22,454 nt of DNA from the IMG/VR virus record IMGVR_UViG_3300045977_000002, positions 1-22,454 of that record. The stretch is one strand, 5' to 3'. The notes below the pieces were generated by a model. It ran no database searches and had not been told where the DNA came from. It saw only the letters and a program-made list of their open reading frames with translations. Made by a program: the position numbers and the translations under genes. Of the stretch, positions 74-8,753 are shown piece by piece (the stretch's first letter is position 1; every line of letters begins with the position of its first letter). The DNA comes from a virus.

Positions 74-1723
74 ATGACACTAGAAGACCAAACTAGAAAG
101 ATATTAAATGAATGGAAACCGGAACCAAAACAGGAGCTATTCCTGTCTATCCCTACGTCAGTGAAAGAGGCTTTTTATGGCGGAGGAGCAGGCTCAGGAA
201 AATCCGATGTTCTTTTGTTGTACGGAATTGTTCATAGATGGCACGAGCATCCTAAGTTTAAGCAAGTATTCATGCGCAGAACATATCCAGAGCTGCGTAA
301 CGAAATTATTCCAAGAAGTCGTGAACTCTATAGAAAGTTCGGAGCTACTCTCAACAAAACTGAAATGTGTTGGACATTCCCCCGTACAGACCAGTACGGA
401 GGTACGGGTGGAACTAATGAGGGTGCAATGATTTTTCTTGGTCATTGCGAGAATGAAGATGACGTACACCAATATGACACGATGCAAATCTGTCTCTATA
501 GTCCAGACGAGCTTACTTCAATTACTGAATGGATTTATACATACATCACCTTCCAGAGAAATCGCGCTCCAAAAGACTCTGGATTGCCATCTATTACTCG
601 CGCTGCTGGAATGCCCGGAGGAATTGGTCATACGTGGACCTATAAACGGTTTATTAAACCGTGGCCTAAAGGCGGAAAGATAATCGTCGGAAAAGGTGGA
701 AACAAGAGGATTTACATCCATTCTACACTAGAAGATAACAAGCACATTGACCCTACGTATCGTCAATCTCTGCAAGGTATTACGATTGAGGCAGAGCGTA
801 AAGCCAAGCTGTTAGGCGATTGGGATGCATATCAAGGTCAGGTGTTTGATGAATTTCGTGATAGGAAGTTTCAGGATGAACCAGAGAATGCACTTCATGT
901 AATTGAACCATTTGAAATTCCTGCATGGTGGCCGCGTATAGTCGTAGGTGATTGGGGATTCACTGCGATGACGTGGATTGGATACGCAGCTATTAGTCCT
1001 AGTCGGCGCGTGTACATTTACCGTGAGCAATATTGGGTAAAGACGAAAATTGCAGAGTGGGCACCACATGTCAAACTTTACATTGATAAAGAATACCCAC
1101 GCCTTATCCGATTCTGTAAGAGTGCGGGTCAGGAACGAGGTCAAGAGCACACCATCCAACAACAGATTGAAGAAGAATTGGGACAGAGTATTGAACTTTC
1201 CCAAAATTCTCCGGGTAGTCGTATCGCGGGTAAACTCTTGGTACATGAATACCTTCGTTGGCAACCAAAATTGGTAAATCCACAGGAGATTGGTCAATAC
1301 AACGAAGACTATGCAATGTGGATTTATCGTAATCGTGGACAGAAAGAATATGAATCGTACATGAATTCATTTCTTCCACAAGAACCGGAGACAAATATCC
1401 CTAAACTCCAGATTATATCTGGAGCTGCTCCGATTTTAGTGGAAGCAATTAAGGCATGTTCATATGATAAGCCAAAAAACAACAAACCAGCAGAGGATAT
1501 AGCAGAATTTGAGGGTGATGACCCTATTGATGGACTGCGCTATTTGGTAGATGCAGCAGAGAATTTCTTTGACGATGCTAACCAAGAGTTCAAACGTATC
1601 CAGAAACAGGATGAACTCGTACGTCAATTATCTGCGAATCAAGATTGGACTGCATTCTACCGAAATATGCGTAAAACCGAATCAGAAGATTTCATAAGAC
1701 CCATAAGTAGATATAGGCATTGA
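74..1723 (+). CDS. terL: Terminase large subunit (DNA-packaging ATPase/nuclease)
   Basis: This is the motor that cuts concatemeric phage DNA and pumps it through the portal into the empty head. The 549 residues show a Walker A loop GGGAGSGKS at residues 36-44. The Walker B-like acidic pair is D145-E146, after a hydrophobic strand (ICLYSPDE; the Pro just before DE is somewhat unusual). The C-terminal RNase H-like nuclease domain has GDWG at 292-295, with D293 as a likely metal ligand, and a late acidic cluster DDPID at 482-486. Length is normal for a large terminase. The ATG at 74 lies one base after the preceding stop with only a weak GAAGAAG purine tract upstream, so translation is probably coupled. 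The stop TGA overlaps the TTG start of the next small gene (ATTGA). Confidence 0.97.
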   Translation: MTLEDQTRKILNEWKPEPKQELFLSIPTSVKEAFYGGGAGSGKSDVLLLYGIVHRWHEHPKFKQVFMRRTYPELRNEIIPRSRELYRKFGATLNKTEMCWTFPRTDQYGGTGGTNEGAMIFLGHCENEDDVHQYDTMQICLYSPDELTSITEWIYTYITFQRNRAPKDSGLPSITRAAGMPGGIGHTWTYKRFIKPWPKGGKIIVGKGGNKRIYIHSTLEDNKHIDPTYRQSLQGITIEAERKAKLLGDWDAYQGQVFDEFRDRKFQDEPENALHVIEPFEIPAWWPRIVVGDWGFTAMTWIGYAAISPSRRVYIYREQYWVKTKIAEWAPHVKLYIDKEYPRLIRFCKSAGQERGQEHTIQQQIEEELGQSIELSQNSPGSRIAGKLLVHEYLRWQPKLVNPQEIGQYNEDYAMWIYRNRGQKEYESYMNSFLPQEPETNIPKLQIISGAAPILVEAIKACSYDKPKNNKPAEDIAEFEGDDPIDGLRYLVDAAENFFDDANQEFKRIQKQDELVRQLSANQDWTAFYRNMRKTESEDFIRPISRYRH

Positions 1724-1824
1724 AGGTTTGCTGGAAAATAGTCTTCGCATGGAGTTTACTACTCACATTTTGCCTAGTTTTTTGGGCTGGAATGGTGTGT
1801 CTCTACGTTAGATTTACAACATGA
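1720..1824 (+). CDS. Tiny single-pass membrane protein, TTG start
   Basis: A 34-codon frame fills the space between terminase and the next gene exactly. It starts at TTG 1720-1722, overlapping the terminase TGA as ATTGA, and ends in TGA 1822-1824, overlapping the next ATG as ATGA. The peptide begins MKVCWKIVFAW and continues into a run of about 20 hydrophobic residues, so it should span the membrane once with a basic N-terminus. The double overlap, the exact fill and the membrane character argue that it is a real, translationally coupled gene. There is no good Shine-Dalgarno sequence. A role in lysis (holin, antiholin or spanin subunit) is possible from its type and place but is not shown. 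Confidence 0.55.
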   Translation: MKVCWKIVFAWSLLLTFCLVFWAGMVCLYVRFTT

Positions 1825-2138
1825 TTAAAGAACTTCTTTACAAATGGTTCGGGCTTGACCCAATTCCTTGTGCGACCTGTGAGGTCTTGAAGGAGACTCT
1901 CTCAATAGAGAGACAATTCAATCAAGTATTACTCCAGAAGTTGCTGGATAAAGGTAAGCCCGAGCCTCTACAAGAAGTAGAGGAAAAGCCTGTACCTATA
2001 CAGCCACAGTTTATACCGTGGCGTGTCAGGCAACAGATGCTAGAAGCAGAGGATAGAAAGAAAGCACAGTTGATGAGGGATAAAAATCAAGAGATTGAGA
2101 AACTTGAAAAAGAACTAGGCGTAACGAATGCCAGCTAA
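1821..2138 (+). CDS. Small phage protein with CxxC and C-terminal coiled coil, unknown function
   Basis: This 105-residue soluble protein has a CATC motif at residues 17-20 in its N-terminal third. A proline-rich middle (P-x-P-I-Q-P-Q-F-I-P-W) is followed by a strongly charged helical tail containing R-Q-Q-M-L-E-A-E-D-R-K-K-A, which should form a coiled coil. The I-P-W-R-V-R-Q-Q-M-L-E-A-E-D-R pattern is familiar to me from uncharacterised small phage proteins near terminase and portal genes. The ATG overlaps the stop of the 34-aa membrane gene (ATGA), and its 3' end overlaps the next gene by 11 bases. The function is unknown. One Cys pair alone would need a partner molecule to bind zinc. Confidence 0.85.
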   Translation: MIKELLYKWFGLDPIPCATCEVLKETLSIERQFNQVLLQKLLDKGKPEPLQEVEEKPVPIQPQFIPWRVRQQMLEAEDRKKAQLMRDKNQEIEKLEKELGVTNAS

Positions 2139-2280
2139 GTCTGCTGCTCAATATCGTTTCATGCAGATGATAGCGCACGGTGGTAAGCCAAATAAAGGTA
2201 TTGGTCCATCTCAAGCAGTTGCGCGTGAATTTGTTGAAAAAACAAGTGCAAAGAAACGAAAGGATTGGAGCAGAAAATGA
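2128..2280 (+). CDS. Small basic phage protein, MPAKSxAQ-type, unknown function
   Basis: A 50-residue basic protein begins MPAKSAAQYRFMQ and contains A-R-E-F-V-E-K-T before a lysine/arginine-rich end. This pattern, MPAKSxAQxRFM near the N-terminus and F-V-x-K-T further on, recurs in short phage proteins of unknown role, and I recognise it as a family rather than a function. The ATG at 2128 lies inside the end of the preceding gene (11-base overlap). Its TGA 2278-2280 overlaps the next ATG as ATGA. The base composition and short helical character would suit nucleic-acid or virion-DNA binding, but nothing in the sequence proves it. Confidence 0.8.
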   Translation: MPAKSAAQYRFMQMIAHGGKPNKGIGPSQAVAREFVEKTSAKKRKDWSRK

Positions 2281-2468
2281 TTATGAACATCATCGGAATA
2301 ATTCTCATTATCCTACCGATTGCACTGGCAATTTGGGTAATTGAGACATATTTCCCCAACTTGCAGAGAGCATTGAAAGCCTTCATCATTGCGTCGATAA
2401 CTATCGCAGTTATCAGACTATTCTATCAGTGGACATGTCAGCTTTTGTGTGGACCACTAATCCCATGA
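2277..2468 (+). CDS. Small membrane protein with two predicted TM segments, holin-like
   Basis: The 63-residue product has hydrophobic segments at about residues 3-24 and 35-52. They are joined by a short turn containing Y-F-P-N-L, and the pattern W-V-I-E-T-Y-F-P ... L-K-A-F-I-I resembles small two-TM phage proteins often called holin-like. I chose the ATG at 2277, which overlaps the preceding TGA (ATGA). An in-frame TTG at 2265 would add four residues (MEQK), and the ATG at 2283 is another possible start, so a dual-start holin/antiholin arrangement is conceivable. The stop overlaps the next ATG. No endolysin is seen in the window, so a lysis role rests on topology alone. Confidence 0.75.
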   Translation: MIMNIIGIILIILPIALAIWVIETYFPNLQRALKAFIIASITIAVIRLFYQWTCQLLCGPLIP

Positions 2469-2599
2469 TTCCCCTATCAATGCTTCTGCTTGTCGTTGCA
2501 TTGGTATTGGCAGTACTGGATGCCATTAAGAGCCAGTCGTATACCTCGTATGCTGTAGTATTAATCTGTATCGCTCTCTTACTGACGAGGGTAATATAA
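2465..2599 (+). CDS. Tiny hydrophobic membrane protein, 44 aa
   Basis: This 44-codon frame starts with ATG 2465, overlapping the preceding TGA (ATGA), and ends in TAA 2597-2599, overlapping the next ATG (TAATG). It begins MIPLSMLLLVVALVLAVLDA, continues with a short polar hinge (I-K-S-Q-S-Y) and ends in a second hydrophobic stretch, so it should form one or two membrane helices. It fills the space between two good genes exactly. With the two neighbouring membrane genes it makes a cluster of three small membrane proteins right after terminase. The function is unknown; holin or virion-membrane roles are possible. Confidence 0.65.
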   Translation: MIPLSMLLLVVALVLAVLDAIKSQSYTSYAVVLICIALLLTRVI

Positions 2600-3498
2600 T
2601 GGGCTTTTGGGGAAAACTCGGAAAAATAGGGCTAAAGATTGCACCCTATGCAGCTATGGCTATTCCGGGTGTAGGCCCATTAGCCGCAGCAGGTATACAG
2701 GCTGGCATAAGTGCAGCACAGAAAAAAGCTAGTGGCGGCAGTTGGATGGACGCGCTGAAAAGCGGTGCATTAAGTGCTGGAACTAGTTACGCTGGTGCCA
2801 AAATACCTGGACTCGACAAGATTACAGGAGGTGCAGGTAAGGGACTTGCACCAAGTGGTAAATTTAACTTTGGTAACTTCCTGAAAGACACCGGCAGGAA
2901 TATGTTGCAAGGTGAGACTGGAATTAGATTGCCAGGTGGTGGACAGGGCGGTGGATTTGATATTCCATTGTATGCGGGCGGAAGTATTCGCGTAGGTGGA
3001 AATAAAGGTTTGGGTCCATCATACGCAGGTGACAGTAGTTTCGTACGTGATGACGTAAACAACGTAGCCAATCGAATCAACTCAATGGGACAGGGTGGAG
3101 GCGGTGGTTGGTCAGGCTTCTTGAAAAGTGCTCTACCAGCAATTGGCGCGGGAGTAGGTGGTTACTTCTTGGGTCGCGGTCAGGGAGGCGGTGGTGGAGA
3201 TAATGAGGAACCAATGTACGGAAGTAGGCCAGCTATGCCTAATTACGAAGGACGTATGCGTGGTCTTGGCCCTGTAATGGGAAGACGTGACCAGAACTTC
3301 CCAAATCTCGCTGAATCAATTGGTGCGGGTAGATTGGAATCCATCCGTAATCAACCATTCCGTAAGGGATACGATGTAATTGGTTACAGCAATGAAAAGA
3401 ATGAGGAAGGTAACTATCCAGAAATAAGAACTCCAATGCCTCCTATTTATCCTACAGGTGGTGGACGTAGGCGTAGACAGGAAGCGGCGGCGTACTGA
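2599..3498 (+). CDS. Glycine-rich protein with amphipathic N-terminus, probable internal/minor virion protein
   Basis: The 299-residue product begins MGFWGKLGKIGLKIAPYAAM and continues as an alternating hydrophobic/glycine/alanine stretch to about residue 40. The rest is glycine-rich with many short G-G-G runs and ends in R-R-R-R-Q. Proteins starting G-[FW]-[GL]-x-K-[LI]-G-K are common among phage minor virion and ejection proteins, where the N-terminal helix is thought to act on membranes. That assignment is by resemblance only. The gene starts on the shared A of TAATG with the 44-aa gene and ends two bases before the portal ATG, so it belongs to the packaging/portal operon. It could also be a portal-associated or scaffolding helper. 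Confidence 0.8.
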   Translation: MGFWGKLGKIGLKIAPYAAMAIPGVGPLAAAGIQAGISAAQKKASGGSWMDALKSGALSAGTSYAGAKIPGLDKITGGAGKGLAPSGKFNFGNFLKDTGRNMLQGETGIRLPGGGQGGGFDIPLYAGGSIRVGGNKGLGPSYAGDSSFVRDDVNNVANRINSMGQGGGGGWSGFLKSALPAIGAGVGGYFLGRGQGGGGGDNEEPMYGSRPAMPNYEGRMRGLGPVMGRRDQNFPNLAESIGAGRLESIRNQPFRKGYDVIGYSNEKNEEGNYPEIRTPMPPIYPTGGGRRRRQEAAAY

Positions 3499-3499
3499 A

Positions 3500-4507
3500 A
3501 TGGCGAAAGAAATTTCAGAAGAAACTAAGAACCTACTGAAACAAGTCGTAGACCATTTTGACGACGAAGATAGAAGTGTGCGTGATAGACAAATACGCAC
3601 ATGGCGTAGACTCAAGCTGTTATGGGAAAACATTCAACACACGTATTACAGTGAGGTTGCCCATGATTGGCGCATTCCCGAATTGCAAAGAGTTGGTGAA
3701 GACACTGACCAAGGATACTACGACAAACCAGTTAACGTCTACAGGGCTTACCTGGAGTCAATTATTGCTGCTCTTTCTGTTACAGTACCTCCTGTCGTAT
3801 GTTATCCAGATGACGCAGACAACCCCTTAGACGTTACAACTGCGAAAGCAGGTAACAAGATTGCAGAGCTAGTTTTCAAGCACAATGACATGCCTCTGTT
3901 CTGGTTACATGCTCTGTTTGTATTCTCTACAGAGGGCATGACTGCGTGTTACGCCTATCCGAAAGAGGATGAAAAATACGGTACATATCAGAAAAAGGAA
4001 TATGAATCCTATCCTGAGATGCATGAGCAGGAAATTTGTTCATTCTGTAATGCAGAAATGTCAGACAGAACCATTACAGAACAGCAGGAAGACAAGTTCA
4101 TGCCAGGAGATGAGGATGTAAATCTTAACTATGCAATGGAGAATGAACCTGAGTTAAAGGTTTGTCCTAATTGTGCTCAGGCAGTCATACCAGATAAGCG
4201 TCAGAGGTCTGTTACAGTTACGCGCTTAGTAGGTATTACGAACCATCCCAAATCGCGTATCTGCATGGAAGTGTACGGGGGACTATTCGTAAAGGTTCCC
4301 ATTTGGGCAAGGAATCAGAAGGAATGTTCCTATCTGATTTATAACTATGAGACACATTACTCGAACGTCCTCGAACAGTATCCGGATTTACGAGATAAAA
4401 TCACCAAAGGACAATCCTCGTACGATATGTACGAGCAGTGGGGACGAACGTCACCTCAATATCACGGTGAGCATCCTATCAATAATGTTACTGTTCGTAA
4501 TTGTTGA
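3500..4507 (+). CDS. Portal protein, N-terminal part (gene interrupted by in-frame TGA)
   Basis: This is the first 335 residues of the dodecameric head vertex through which DNA enters and leaves. The start ATG at 3500 follows the previous stop by one base; an upstream in-frame ATG at 3458 lies inside the preceding gene. Helical segments rich in basic and aromatic residues (R-D-R-Q-I-R-T-W-R-R-L-K-L-L-W) and a Y-D-K-P-V-N-V-Y-R-A-Y-L-E-S-I-I segment near residues 74-89 are typical of P22-like large portals. Residues C180-S-F-C183 and C222-P-N-C225 form two CxxC pairs, a likely zinc-ribbon insert. The frame stops at TGA 4505-4507 straight after V-R-N-C, but the next codons continue the same protein in the same frame (see 4508-5863). 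Together they would make 787 residues with one residue at the TGA. Confidence 0.9.
   Translation: MAKEISEETKNLLKQVVDHFDDEDRSVRDRQIRTWRRLKLLWENIQHTYYSEVAHDWRIPELQRVGEDTDQGYYDKPVNVYRAYLESIIAALSVTVPPVVCYPDDADNPLDVTTAKAGNKIAELVFKHNDMPLFWLHALFVFSTEGMTACYAYPKEDEKYGTYQKKEYESYPEMHEQEICSFCNAEMSDRTITEQQEDKFMPGDEDVNLNYAMENEPELKVCPNCAQAVIPDKRQRSVTVTRLVGITNHPKSRICMEVYGGLFVKVPIWARNQKECSYLIYNYETHYSNVLEQYPDLRDKITKGQSSYDMYEQWGRTSPQYHGEHPINNVTVRNC
4505..4507 (+). other. In-frame TGA interrupting the portal gene at a predicted Trp codon
   Basis: Codons 334-337 read AAT TGT TGA TTG, and the frame continues as clear portal sequence on both sides. One base change (TGG to TGA) would restore a Trp at the expected C-W-L-R-P site. 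TGA is a genuine stop for at least nine other genes here (for example those ending at 1723, 2280, 3498, 11491 and 17855), so wholesale recoding is not supported. The 3' base is T, not the C of the classical leaky UGA-C context. Confidence 0.85.
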
Positions 4508-5863
4508 TTGCGCCCTTGCTCTTTTAACATTCTGACTAAAGATGAGTGCGATGAACTGAAGAAGCAATTTCCTGATGGCGTGAAAGTAGTGGTGGTAAAT
4601 GACTTCGTTGCTTATGCATGTAATGAAGCCCTTGATGATTGCTGGACTCTTACTTACAACCCTCTATCAGATTATATTCACTTCGACCCGATTGGTTTAC
4701 TTCTCGTTTCGGTACAAGACATCACTAACGACCTCATTTCGCTTGTGCTTCAGACCGTGGAACATGGTATTCCACAGACGTTTGCAGACCCTAAAGTTCT
4801 CAACTTCAATGCCTACAGACAATCAGAAGTTATACCGGGAGGTATATATCCCGCCACCCCAAAGAGTGGTAAACCATTAAGTGATGGGTTCTATGAAGTT
4901 AAAACAGCGACATTATCACAAGAAGTGCTACCGTTCGCGCAAAAAGTCCAAGAAATCGGTCAATTGGTTTCGGGAGCCTTACCTTCATTGTTTGGTGGGC
5001 AGACAGCAGGTAGCAGAACAGCATCAGAATACTCAATGAGTCGTGCTCAGGCTTTGCAAAGATTGCAAGGCACTTGGAAGATGTTGTTGTTGTGGTGGAA
5101 GAATATATTTGGCAAAGTCATCCCGATGTATATCAAAGAGATGAAGGATGACGAAAAACAAGTCAAAAAAGACGAGTTTGGAAACTTTGTCAACGTATTC
5201 ATCCGTATGGCTGAACTTCAGGGTAAGATTGGTTCTGTTGAAATTGAGGCTAACGAGAATCTTCCGATTACGTGGAACCAGCAAAAAGACGCAATCATGG
5301 AATTGTTCCAGTTGAATAATGAGGGTATTACAGCTACTCTCGCATCACCTGAGAACTTGCCATACATCAAACGCGCAATTGGTCTAAATGACTACATCAT
5401 TCCAGGAGAAGATGACAGACAGAAGGAATACGAAGAAATTCAACTTCTCATAAACTCTGAACCAATTGAGATGCCACCTGACCCAATGATGATGCAACAG
5501 GCTATGATGGCAGGTATGCCACCTCCACCACCTGTTAGACTGCCGAGCATTGAACCAGATTTTGAGGTGGATAATCATTTACTTGCAGCAGATATTGATA
5601 GACGATGGTTGGTATCTGATGCAGGTAGATTGTGCAAACTAGAAAATCCTCCGGGATATGAAAATGTACTCTTGCACATGAAGATGCATAAAGATATGGA
5701 TATGCAGAAACAGATGCAGGAGATGCAGAAACAAATGATGGCACAGGGCGGTATGATGCCTCCACCAGCGGGGCCACCACAAGAGCAACAACAAGCTGGT
5801 CCACCTCCTCAGAGTACTGGGGAGCCATTACAAGAGGGTGAATATGAACCTGTTGTTCAATAA
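4508..5863 (+). CDS. Portal protein, C-terminal part
   Basis: The 451 codons after the TGA continue the portal in the same frame, with no plausible independent start. TTG 4508 abuts the stop, there is no Shine-Dalgarno sequence, and the next in-frame ATG is far inside. L-R-P-C-S-F-N-I-L would follow a Trp in many large portals I recall (C-W-L-R-P-x-x-F-N). Later parts include G-S-R-T-A-S-E-Y-S-M-S-R-A-Q-A-L-Q-R-L-Q-G-T-W and R-R-W-L-V-S-D-A-G-R. The C-terminal tail is rich in Met, Gln and Pro (M-Q-K-Q-M-Q-E-M-Q-K-Q-M-M). The gene ends in TAA and overlaps the scaffold start. A separate polypeptide from this part is unlikely; readthrough, a Trp-to-stop mutation or a sequence error fits better. 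Confidence 0.9.
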   Translation: MRPCSFNILTKDECDELKKQFPDGVKVVVVNDFVAYACNEALDDCWTLTYNPLSDYIHFDPIGLLLVSVQDITNDLISLVLQTVEHGIPQTFADPKVLNFNAYRQSEVIPGGIYPATPKSGKPLSDGFYEVKTATLSQEVLPFAQKVQEIGQLVSGALPSLFGGQTAGSRTASEYSMSRAQALQRLQGTWKMLLLWWKNIFGKVIPMYIKEMKDDEKQVKKDEFGNFVNVFIRMAELQGKIGSVEIEANENLPITWNQQKDAIMELFQLNNEGITATLASPENLPYIKRAIGLNDYIIPGEDDRQKEYEEIQLLINSEPIEMPPDPMMMQQAMMAGMPPPPPVRLPSIEPDFEVDNHLLAADIDRRWLVSDAGRLCKLENPPGYENVLLHMKMHKDMDMQKQMQEMQKQMMAQGGMMPPPAGPPQEQQQAGPPPQSTGEPLQEGEYEPVVQ

Positions 5864-7115
5864 GTTGTACGCTGCTCCTGATTCTGGCGGCTCCGGTGGT
5901 GCTACAGCACCAGAGGAGACAGAAACATTTGAACTTCTGAATGCAGAAGAAGAACCTGAAGTATTAGACCTTCCAAAAACTGAAAAGAAAGAAGGTGAAG
6001 AAGATGAGGAAAGCGAAGATAAGACAACAGGAGAGGAAGAAGAAGGCGATGAACTTAAAGAAATTGAAAAAGAACTTGAAGCGCCAACAGAAGAAGACAT
6101 CGACGAATTAATTACTCCTGTACGCCGTAAGGAGATACTAACAAAATATCCTAAACTGTTTAAGGATTTTCCGTATCTCGAAAAGGCATACTACAGAGAA
6201 CAACAGTTTACAGAAGTATATCCTACGATTCAGGATGCGCGGGTAGCAGCAGATAAAGCTGCAATTCTGGACCGCACTGAACGTGAGGTAATGAATGGAA
6301 ATATTGGTTCGATTCTATCCGCTGCAAAGCAAGAGAACCAAGAGATATTCAATAGGATTGCTGACAACTACTTGCCAACGCTGCGGGCAGTAGACCAGCA
6401 GGCATATTATCACGTACTCAGTGGTGTAATCAAGGACACCATTGTTACGATGGTAAGAGAAGGACGCGCTCTAGGTGAGCAAGGTGCGCCATTACAAGCT
6501 GCTGCGAACGTATTGAATCAGTTTGTATTTGGCTCACAGAATTTCCAGCCTCACCATCCGTTGTCACGTCAGGTAAGACCTGAGGAACAGCGGAGAGAGT
6601 ATGAATTTCAGCAGCAAGAAAACAACAGGATGATGAGTCAGTTTACGTCTGTAAAGGATGATTTACAGACTAAAGCTGATAATGTCCTGAAATCCACGAT
6701 AGATGGTCATATTGACCCTCGTGGAACGATGACAGATTACGTGAAGCAGCACGCAACGCAAGAGGCTTTCAATAACTTGGAAGACCTACTGGCGAAAGAT
6801 ATGCGCTTCCGTAGTCTACTGGATAAACTGTGGGAAAAGGCTTTTGAAAGTGGTTTCGATAAGACCACTACTGATAAGATAAAAGCTGCATACCTCTCTA
6901 AAGCAAAGACGCTGTTGCCTAGCGTAATAAAAAAGGCACGAAATGATGCTTTGAGAGGACGTTCTAATCGTGAAGAAATTGACGACGAAACACCGACCTC
7001 TAAAAAAGGTCCAATTACTCCTGGCCGGTCCACAGCCCCTTCAAGTGGAAAAATCCGTAAACCGTCAGATATACCAAAAGGTATGTCTACATTGGACGTG
7101 CTGATGAAGGACTAG
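5844..7115 (+). CDS. Probable capsid scaffolding protein
   Basis: This 423-residue protein sits between portal and capsid genes, the usual site of scaffold genes. After a glycine-rich start, residues 20-90 are strongly acidic (runs of E and D, e.g. E-E-D-E-E-S-E-D). The rest is mostly helical and charged, and the C-terminus is basic (G-R-S-N-R-E-E ... K-K-G-P-I-T-P-G-R-S), as expected where a scaffold touches the capsid. I prefer ATG 5844 because AAGAGGG at 5832-5838 lies five bases upstream; an in-frame GTG at 5838 would add two residues. It overlaps the portal end by 20 bases. There is no protease motif, so maturation may use scaffold exit rather than cleavage. A minor head protein is the alternative. 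Confidence 0.82.
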   Translation: MNLLFNKLYAAPDSGGSGGATAPEETETFELLNAEEEPEVLDLPKTEKKEGEEDEESEDKTTGEEEEGDELKEIEKELEAPTEEDIDELITPVRRKEILTKYPKLFKDFPYLEKAYYREQQFTEVYPTIQDARVAADKAAILDRTEREVMNGNIGSILSAAKQENQEIFNRIADNYLPTLRAVDQQAYYHVLSGVIKDTIVTMVREGRALGEQGAPLQAAANVLNQFVFGSQNFQPHHPLSRQVRPEEQRREYEFQQQENNRMMSQFTSVKDDLQTKADNVLKSTIDGHIDPRGTMTDYVKQHATQEAFNNLEDLLAKDMRFRSLLDKLWEKAFESGFDKTTTDKIKAAYLSKAKTLLPSVIKKARNDALRGRSNREEIDDETPTSKKGPITPGRSTAPSSGKIRKPSDIPKGMSTLDVLMKD

Positions 7116-7126
7116 GAGTAAACATC

Positions 7127-8377
7127 ATGGCTGTTGTTGAATCTCAAGTAGCAGCCCTCGAATTGGAAAAGGTAATTCCAAAGGTTCGAGTGCTGTTCGA
7201 GAGGGACGACAAATTCTATGCGAACATCAAGAAGCGCGATGTTGAAAAGATTTCACATCGCCAGATGCGTGTTCCATTGGAATTGCGTCCCGGTGGTTCG
7301 TTCCAGTATTTCAACCCTGATGGTGGAGATTTGGGACGAGGTGGTGGGCCTACGTTTGACAAGGCTGTACTCAACTGTGTTTTCCTGAGTGAAAACATTG
7401 AGTACACCAAGTTGACTCAGTGGGCTACTGATGATGCGCGTAAAGCCATCGTCAATTCTGTACGTCGTCTGACTGCTACGGCACTCGATGAGATGCGTCG
7501 TCAGTTGGATAGTCAGATGATGCAGACTGGTGATGGTGTGGTTGGTGTTGTGACGACTGATACCCCTGCGGGTGGAAGCAACGTCATTACGCTGACTACG
7601 GATGGCTTCGGTGCGCGTCTTGTACGGTTTGGTCAGACTGTACAGGTATTTGACGCTGCACTTGCAGTGAATCGTGGTAGTGCAACTATCACGTTGTGGG
7701 ATGTGGAGAACAAGGTAATCAACTTGACTCCACAGATTGCTGGTGTGGTACCCGGTGACAAGCTCGTTACCAATGGTATCGCAGCACCCGCATCACTGCC
7801 TGCATTGTTTGGTGTTCCGTATCACCATAGCAATGCATCTGCTGGTACATGGTTGGGCTTCTCGCGCTCAACTACTCCTGAAATCCGTGCTAACCGCGTC
7901 AATGCGGCTAGTGCTGGATTGACTCTGCCACTTCCTCGTCTTGCCATGAATAAGATTGGGAATCGCGTGGGTATTGAGAATACGTTCTCTCCACGTGCAT
8001 GGATGCATCCCTGTCAGATTCAGGCATACGAGGAAATTGGACAGTTGGTGTCCATCATCCAGAAGATGCCGAAAGAAGAAGGACTCAACATGTATTTCGG
8101 CACCAACATGCAGTTGGCTGGTGCTGGTTGTACACCTTCTTTCAACTGGGATAAAACTCGTATCGACTTCGTTGTCGATGAAGTGTGGGGCCGTGGTGAG
8201 ATTCTCCCCATTGGATTCTACACGACTGATGGACGTAAGATTTTCGAGATTCGCGGTGCGTCTGGTGGCGTAGCCGCAGCGGAAATCTTCTACATGGTTG
8301 TGGGGATGCAGACGTTTGTATCCAATCCTGCTGCATGTTCCTACATTGACAATCTGGCTGTTCCAGTCGGATATTAG
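7127..8377 (+). CDS. Major capsid protein
   Basis: This 416-residue protein forms the icosahedral shell. The assignment rests on position after portal and scaffold, length, and the pattern of a long N-terminal helix (V-A-A-L-E-L-E-K-V-I-P-K-V) followed by beta-rich segments, as in HK97-fold coats. Residues about 140-215 (T-D-T-P-A-G-G-S-N-V-I-T-L onward) are a beta-rich stretch that could be an insertion domain as in P22-like coats. AGGAG at 7115-7119 lies eight bases before the ATG, a strong ribosome binding site as expected for the most abundant virion protein. Codon choice is more GC-rich (many cgt, ctg, gtc) than in the tail genes, also consistent with high expression. There is no delta-domain signature of a self-cleaving capsid. 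Confidence 0.92.
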   Translation: MAVVESQVAALELEKVIPKVRVLFERDDKFYANIKKRDVEKISHRQMRVPLELRPGGSFQYFNPDGGDLGRGGGPTFDKAVLNCVFLSENIEYTKLTQWATDDARKAIVNSVRRLTATALDEMRRQLDSQMMQTGDGVVGVVTTDTPAGGSNVITLTTDGFGARLVRFGQTVQVFDAALAVNRGSATITLWDVENKVINLTPQIAGVVPGDKLVTNGIAAPASLPALFGVPYHHSNASAGTWLGFSRSTTPEIRANRVNAASAGLTLPLPRLAMNKIGNRVGIENTFSPRAWMHPCQIQAYEEIGQLVSIIQKMPKEEGLNMYFGTNMQLAGAGCTPSFNWDKTRIDFVVDEVWGRGEILPIGFYTTDGRKIFEIRGASGGVAAAEIFYMVVGMQTFVSNPAACSYIDNLAVPVGY

Positions 8378-8385
8378 GAGGAACA

Positions 8386-8685
8386 ATGCCACTTACAGCA
8401 TCAGATTGGGCTGCAATCTCTCCTGTGAACAATAGTGCTCCGGGTACTCTTGTATCCGCTGCTACTGTTGCTCCAAACACCTTCCTCACCGTGCTGACTG
8501 GCAATACGGCAATCGCTACGATTACGCCTCCTGTCACTCATGCACACATGCTCGCACTCCAGTTTGCGGGCACAGCGGGTGTAGTTGCTACAGGTAACAT
8601 TCTCACTGCCAAGGCGTCAGTAGTTGGTGAGGTGATGTTGCTTGTGTACAACCCGAACACTGCGAAGTACGTTCCTGTGGGTTAG
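8386..8685 (+). CDS. Small beta-rich virion protein, probable capsid decoration (copy 1)
   Basis: The 99-residue product has no charged helices and is built of short beta segments with A-S/A-A-T-V-A-P, T-G-N-T-A-I-A-T-I-T-P-P and A-T-G-N-I motifs, ending L-L-V-Y-N-P-N-T-A-K-Y. The T-A-I-x-T-I ... G-N-I pattern resembles beta-fold modules known in phage head fibres and tail spikes. AGGAGGAAC at 8376-8384 gives a very strong ribosome binding site, and the gene starts nine bases after the capsid gene, so it should be made in large amounts. A decoration or cement protein, or a head-fibre subunit, is the best reading. The protein at 8785-9081 is clearly related to it. Confidence 0.75.
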   Translation: MPLTASDWAAISPVNNSAPGTLVSAATVAPNTFLTVLTGNTAIATITPPVTHAHMLALQFAGTAGVVATGNILTAKASVVGEVMLLVYNPNTAKYVPVG

Positions 8686-8691
8686 TTGGGC

Positions 8692-8753
8692 GGGTGGATA
8701 ATTGATGCTGGGACTACATATTATCCCTGATATGTAGGGTCAGTTATCCACCC
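8692..8753 (+). promoter_or_regulatory. Nested inverted repeats (RNA hairpin) between the two decoration-like genes
   Basis: An outer stem pairs 8692-8705 (GGGTGGATAATTGA) with 8740-8753 (TCAGTTATCCACCC), 14 base pairs with one G-T. An inner stem pairs CTACATAT (8714-8721) with ATATGTAG (8730-8737), leaving an 8-base loop. No T-run follows the right arm (it continues CCTATCATC), so this is not a standard intrinsic terminator. The right-arm segment TCCACC (8747-8752) can instead pair with GGTGGA (8768-8773), which overlaps the GGAGGAGG ribosome binding site of the next gene. It may be a processing site, an mRNA stabiliser or a translational switch. Confidence 0.7.

Follow-up and report, generated by a model that had tools for sequence, protein, structure and literature searches.

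An in-frame stop codon within an otherwise conserved phage gene may be a feature of the phage, a defect of one genome, or an error of the contig in which it is seen. We addressed this question for a stretch of 22,454 nucleotides of the virus record IMGVR_UViG_3300045977_000002 (positions 1 to 22,454; hereafter the window), in which an otherwise open frame of 787 codons at positions 3500-5863 is broken by a TGA. The translation across the stop reads VRNC-stop-LRPCSFN. An earlier reading of the window, made from the sequence alone, had described a split portal-type gene with one frame on both sides of the TGA, and this description was confirmed. In the relatives, the two halves of the window gene are two parts of a single uninterrupted protein. 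The features discussed below are collected in Table 1.

Table 1. Features of the window around the interrupted frame.
Feature	Coordinates	Strand	Description
Terminase large subunit	74..1723	+	Intact, ends in TGA; PHROG 979 E 8.5e-33, Pfam Terminase_6N
Portal gene, 5' part	3500..4504	+	335 codons, ATG at 3500; relatives encoded on 62 viral contigs
In-frame TGA	4505..4507	+	Replaces the Trp codon of the relatives
Strain-variant patch	4507..4564	+	58 bp; 4507 nonsense; 4546, 4549 and 4564 synonymous
Portal gene, 3' part	4508..5863	+	451 codons, TAA at 5861-5863; joined to the 5' part in every relative spanning both
Probable major head protein	7127..8377	+	Intact; PHROG 14242 E 7e-4; alignments of 83 relatives cover at least 90% of its length

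The identification of the gene as a phage portal is well supported. It lies where a portal gene is expected, between the genes of the terminase large subunit and the probable major head protein. To compare its fold with known structures, the structure of the intact protein of a near-identical relative (L002) was predicted from 25 relatives and searched against the PDB using Foldseek. The leading PDB matches were all phage portals, namely those of N4 (E 2.9e-7), Pa223 (5.8e-7), and Moo19 (1.5e-6). It should be noted that the predicted structure is of low confidence (mean pLDDT 51) and that the TM-scores were low; a portal fold is indicated by this model but not proven in detail. The best fold matches are portals of the N4 or podophage type (PDB 9lc1, 9nwm, and 9d80), and the match to the P22 portal was far weaker. 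The gene had previously been called a P22-like portal; the portal part of that description stands, while "P22-like" proved loose, as an N4-type or general podophage portal fits the fold matches better.

At the level of sequence, the gene matched neither a family of Pfam or PHROGs nor a portal in the PDB, no meaningful match was obtained when the solved structures were searched by sequence, and no relatives of the portal were present among 50,697 phage records. The hhalign comparison with the proteins annotated as portals in Pelagibacter phage HTVC115P and Roseobacter phage CRP-9 was weak, with the PS..GGQ..SRTAS..SM region in register. Unlike the N4- and podophage-type portals named above, to which it has no sequence-level match, the window family carries a variable-length insert bearing four invariant cysteines. 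These form two CxxC pairs present in 25 of 25 sequences (C180, C183, C222, and C225 of the L002 protein, within the part that corresponds to window 3500-4504), and the arrangement is zinc-ribbon-like. To our knowledge, such a CxxC insert is unusual for a portal.

Two scans of viral_contigs yielded 129 loci (L002-L130) besides the window's own copy (L001). The codon in question is covered by 124 loci, of which 122 have TGG, one has TTG (L022), and the window alone has TGA. When identical 159-nt neighbourhoods were collapsed, 71 distinct sequences were obtained: 68 with TGG, one with TTG, one with TGA, and a remaining truncated locus, also with TGG. The Trp column is invariant in the alignment of 25 proteins (W336 of L002). 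The expectation of the sequence-only reading that Trp belongs at this site and that the window differs from its relatives by a change of TGG to TGA was thus supported. Meanwhile, no stop was found within the aligned portal in any of the 123 other loci and, therefore, the stop is not a feature of the family.

L022 represents a second departure at this same codon, with Trp replaced by Leu (TTG, position 7001). It differs from L020 at two positions in 7067 bp, the codon change among them, and both positions lie no more than 67 bases from the contig end; the TTG is probably a contig-end error or a strain variant. L022 parallels the window in that the same Trp codon is changed in a contig with few differences from a close relative, and it counts in favour of the artefact proposed below. 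More generally, the relatives of window 74-8685 make up a large and diverse set of metagenomic phages, 45-48 kb in size. A search of genome_contigs for provirus relatives that could point to a host returned none.

We then considered whether the TGA could be read as a sense codon. If the host or the phage read TGA as Trp, fully or partially, the change would be silent, and it does sit among third-position silent changes (see below). Against this, the in-frame codons of the window comprise 99 TGG and one TGA, and seven other closed genes in the gene list end in TGA, fewer than the "at least nine" counted previously. Across the relatives, TGA, TAA, and TAG interchange at the same gene ends; the terminase gene, for example, ends in TGA at 30 loci, in TAA at 40, and in TAG at 41, some of these loci being copies of one contig. 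As the stop codons alternate at homologous gene ends, we conclude that TGA functions as a stop codon in this group of phages. A code in which TGA means Trp, wholesale or partial, was rejected, since in-frame TGA codons are not numerous and TGA is not rare as a terminator. This bears out the earlier view that no wholesale code change has occurred, and we regard any such decoding as very improbable. The phages with reassigned stop codons (PMC11210395) share with the window an in-frame stop in an otherwise conserved structural gene; in those phages, however, many genes are interrupted and the coding density falls, whereas in the window one codon of one gene is affected and TGA still terminates.

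Functional readthrough would yield the full-length portal through decoding of the UGA by a near-cognate tRNA-Trp or a suppressor tRNA. Trp, which the family has at this site, would be inserted, and the frame stays open beyond the stop; misreading of UGA by tRNA-Trp is moreover the classical leaky case. However, no tRNA genes were found in the window, and of the 22 long relatives (42-48 kb), 18 lack tRNA genes while the other four (L133-L136) each carry one tRNA-Leu(UAA), a tRNA that does not decode UGA, so that no cognate suppressor tRNA was found in the window or in these relatives. Downstream of the stop, no Rfam family was matched and the predicted fold was not significant (z-score -0.41), which speaks against a stimulatory RNA element. 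The TGA is followed by T, a context in which termination is strong in E. coli. Programmed readthrough would need a stop conserved among the relatives, and it is absent from all 123 other loci, including the near-identical L002 and L003. Readthrough, a suppressor, and partial reading of TGA as Trp, all of which the sequence-only reading had listed as options, thus gained no support, and we consider functional readthrough improbable. Similarly improbable is a real circulating strain that has the TGA in its essential portal gene and nevertheless produces the complete portal, its host partly reading UGA as Trp and so making the change effectively silent.

Two further readings of the TGA were considered. 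A genuine two-gene portal, restarting at the TTG at 4508 directly 3' of the stop, is extremely improbable: the homologs, in all of which the frame is single and uninterrupted, refute a conserved split gene for the family, and no clear ribosome-binding site was seen by eye before 4508. Decoding of the UGA as selenocysteine would agree with its in-frame position, but the homologs have Trp and not Cys at this site, and neither an Rfam element nor a significant hairpin follows; this we regard as a negligible possibility.

The origin of the TGA was approached by comparison with the two near-identical contigs. These, L002 (window 2078-8695) and L003 (window 1204-5446), come from two other sample records; as their IMG record numbers are neighbouring, they may stem from one study and so not be fully independent. 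Both have TGG at the codon, and they are identical to each other over 2078-5238. TGG at this site had been named in advance as evidence against readthrough if seen in reads; it is seen here at the level of contigs rather than of reads. A search of viral_contigs for further copies of the window haplotype recovered only L002 and L003 again, and the right half of the window had no near-identical contigs.

The window differs from L002 (over 2078-8396) or L003 (over 1253-5238) solely at the four sites of the patch given in Table 1. All four differences are third-position transitions: those in GAG/GAA, TGC/TGT, and AAG/AAA are synonymous, and that in TGA/TGG is nonsense. The chance that four random differences in 6319 bp fall within 58 bp is P ~3e-6, and this clustering speaks for a patch of strain variants that entered the window, either by assembly or by real recombination. 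The three synonymous third-position transitions fit real strain variation. Further strain differences, mostly synonymous, occur at the ends of the near-identical contigs (L003 at 1246-1252 and 5239-5320, L002 at 8397-8695); in the gene at 8386-8685, 18 of the 23 codons that differ between the window and L002 are changed synonymously. These differences indicate that the population from which the samples came contains related strains side by side. It was also observed that L002 is identical to the window over 4565-8396 and then diverges by ~9% (27 differences in 8397-8695), which suggests a strain switch or a recombination boundary near a small structural gene.

We propose that the TGA represents a nonsense change of one base, private to one metagenomic contig, and, at somewhat better than even confidence, an artefact of assembly or consensus calling rather than a feature of the phage. 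With related strains coexisting in the sampled population, the assembler would have used variant-strain reads for the short stretch 4507-4564 in a contig that elsewhere equals the common strain; the TGA would have come in along with this stretch, as a read or consensus error left uncorrected. In the common strain, the portal would be one protein of 787 residues with Trp at this position. We infer that assembly brought in the patch and that its nonsense base is erroneous; alternatively, the patch may have arisen by real recombination. In De Bruijn graph assemblers, variants farther apart than the k-mer size are left unphased, and consensus or inter-strain chimeric contigs can result (PMC11443906). 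The window resembles such contigs in having a short patch of linked variants in an otherwise identical contig; it differs from the cases of that work in that one patch site makes a stop codon, and here the patch is deduced from contig comparison. Assembly or sequencing error, the first option of the sequence-only reading, is thus favoured and refined, the TGA being one of four clustered strain-variant sites.

Counting against an artefact is the location of the site, well within a 22-kb contig rather than close to one of its ends. In addition, the three linked changes are not explained by pure base-calling error, so that some of the patch, at the least, reflects real variation, and this may hold for the TGA as well. 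In that case a minority phage genome would carry a genuine nonsense mutation, acquired with or without real recombination of the patch. This genome would make a truncated portal and would last only for a short time, or through complementation by intact relatives that infect the same cell. Such a defective allele is favoured by the linkage of the TGA to three synonymous variants that are plausibly natural and by the apparent integrity of the remaining window genes that have homologs; in mixed infections, moreover, complementation of phages is possible. However, the portal is essential and a defective allele should be rare, yet the TGA stands in the consensus of a 22-kb contig, and viral_contigs yielded no second copy. 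We rank a real but defective minority allele below the artefact, as a less likely alternative.

The comparison with near-identical contigs exposed the four-site strain patch, and its main lesson is one of caution: when a single in-frame stop stands at a conserved Trp in a metagenomic phage contig, near-identical contigs should be consulted before recoding or readthrough is invoked. If the functional reading were true, it would mean that this phage can bear a leaky stop codon in a structural gene that is essential to it.
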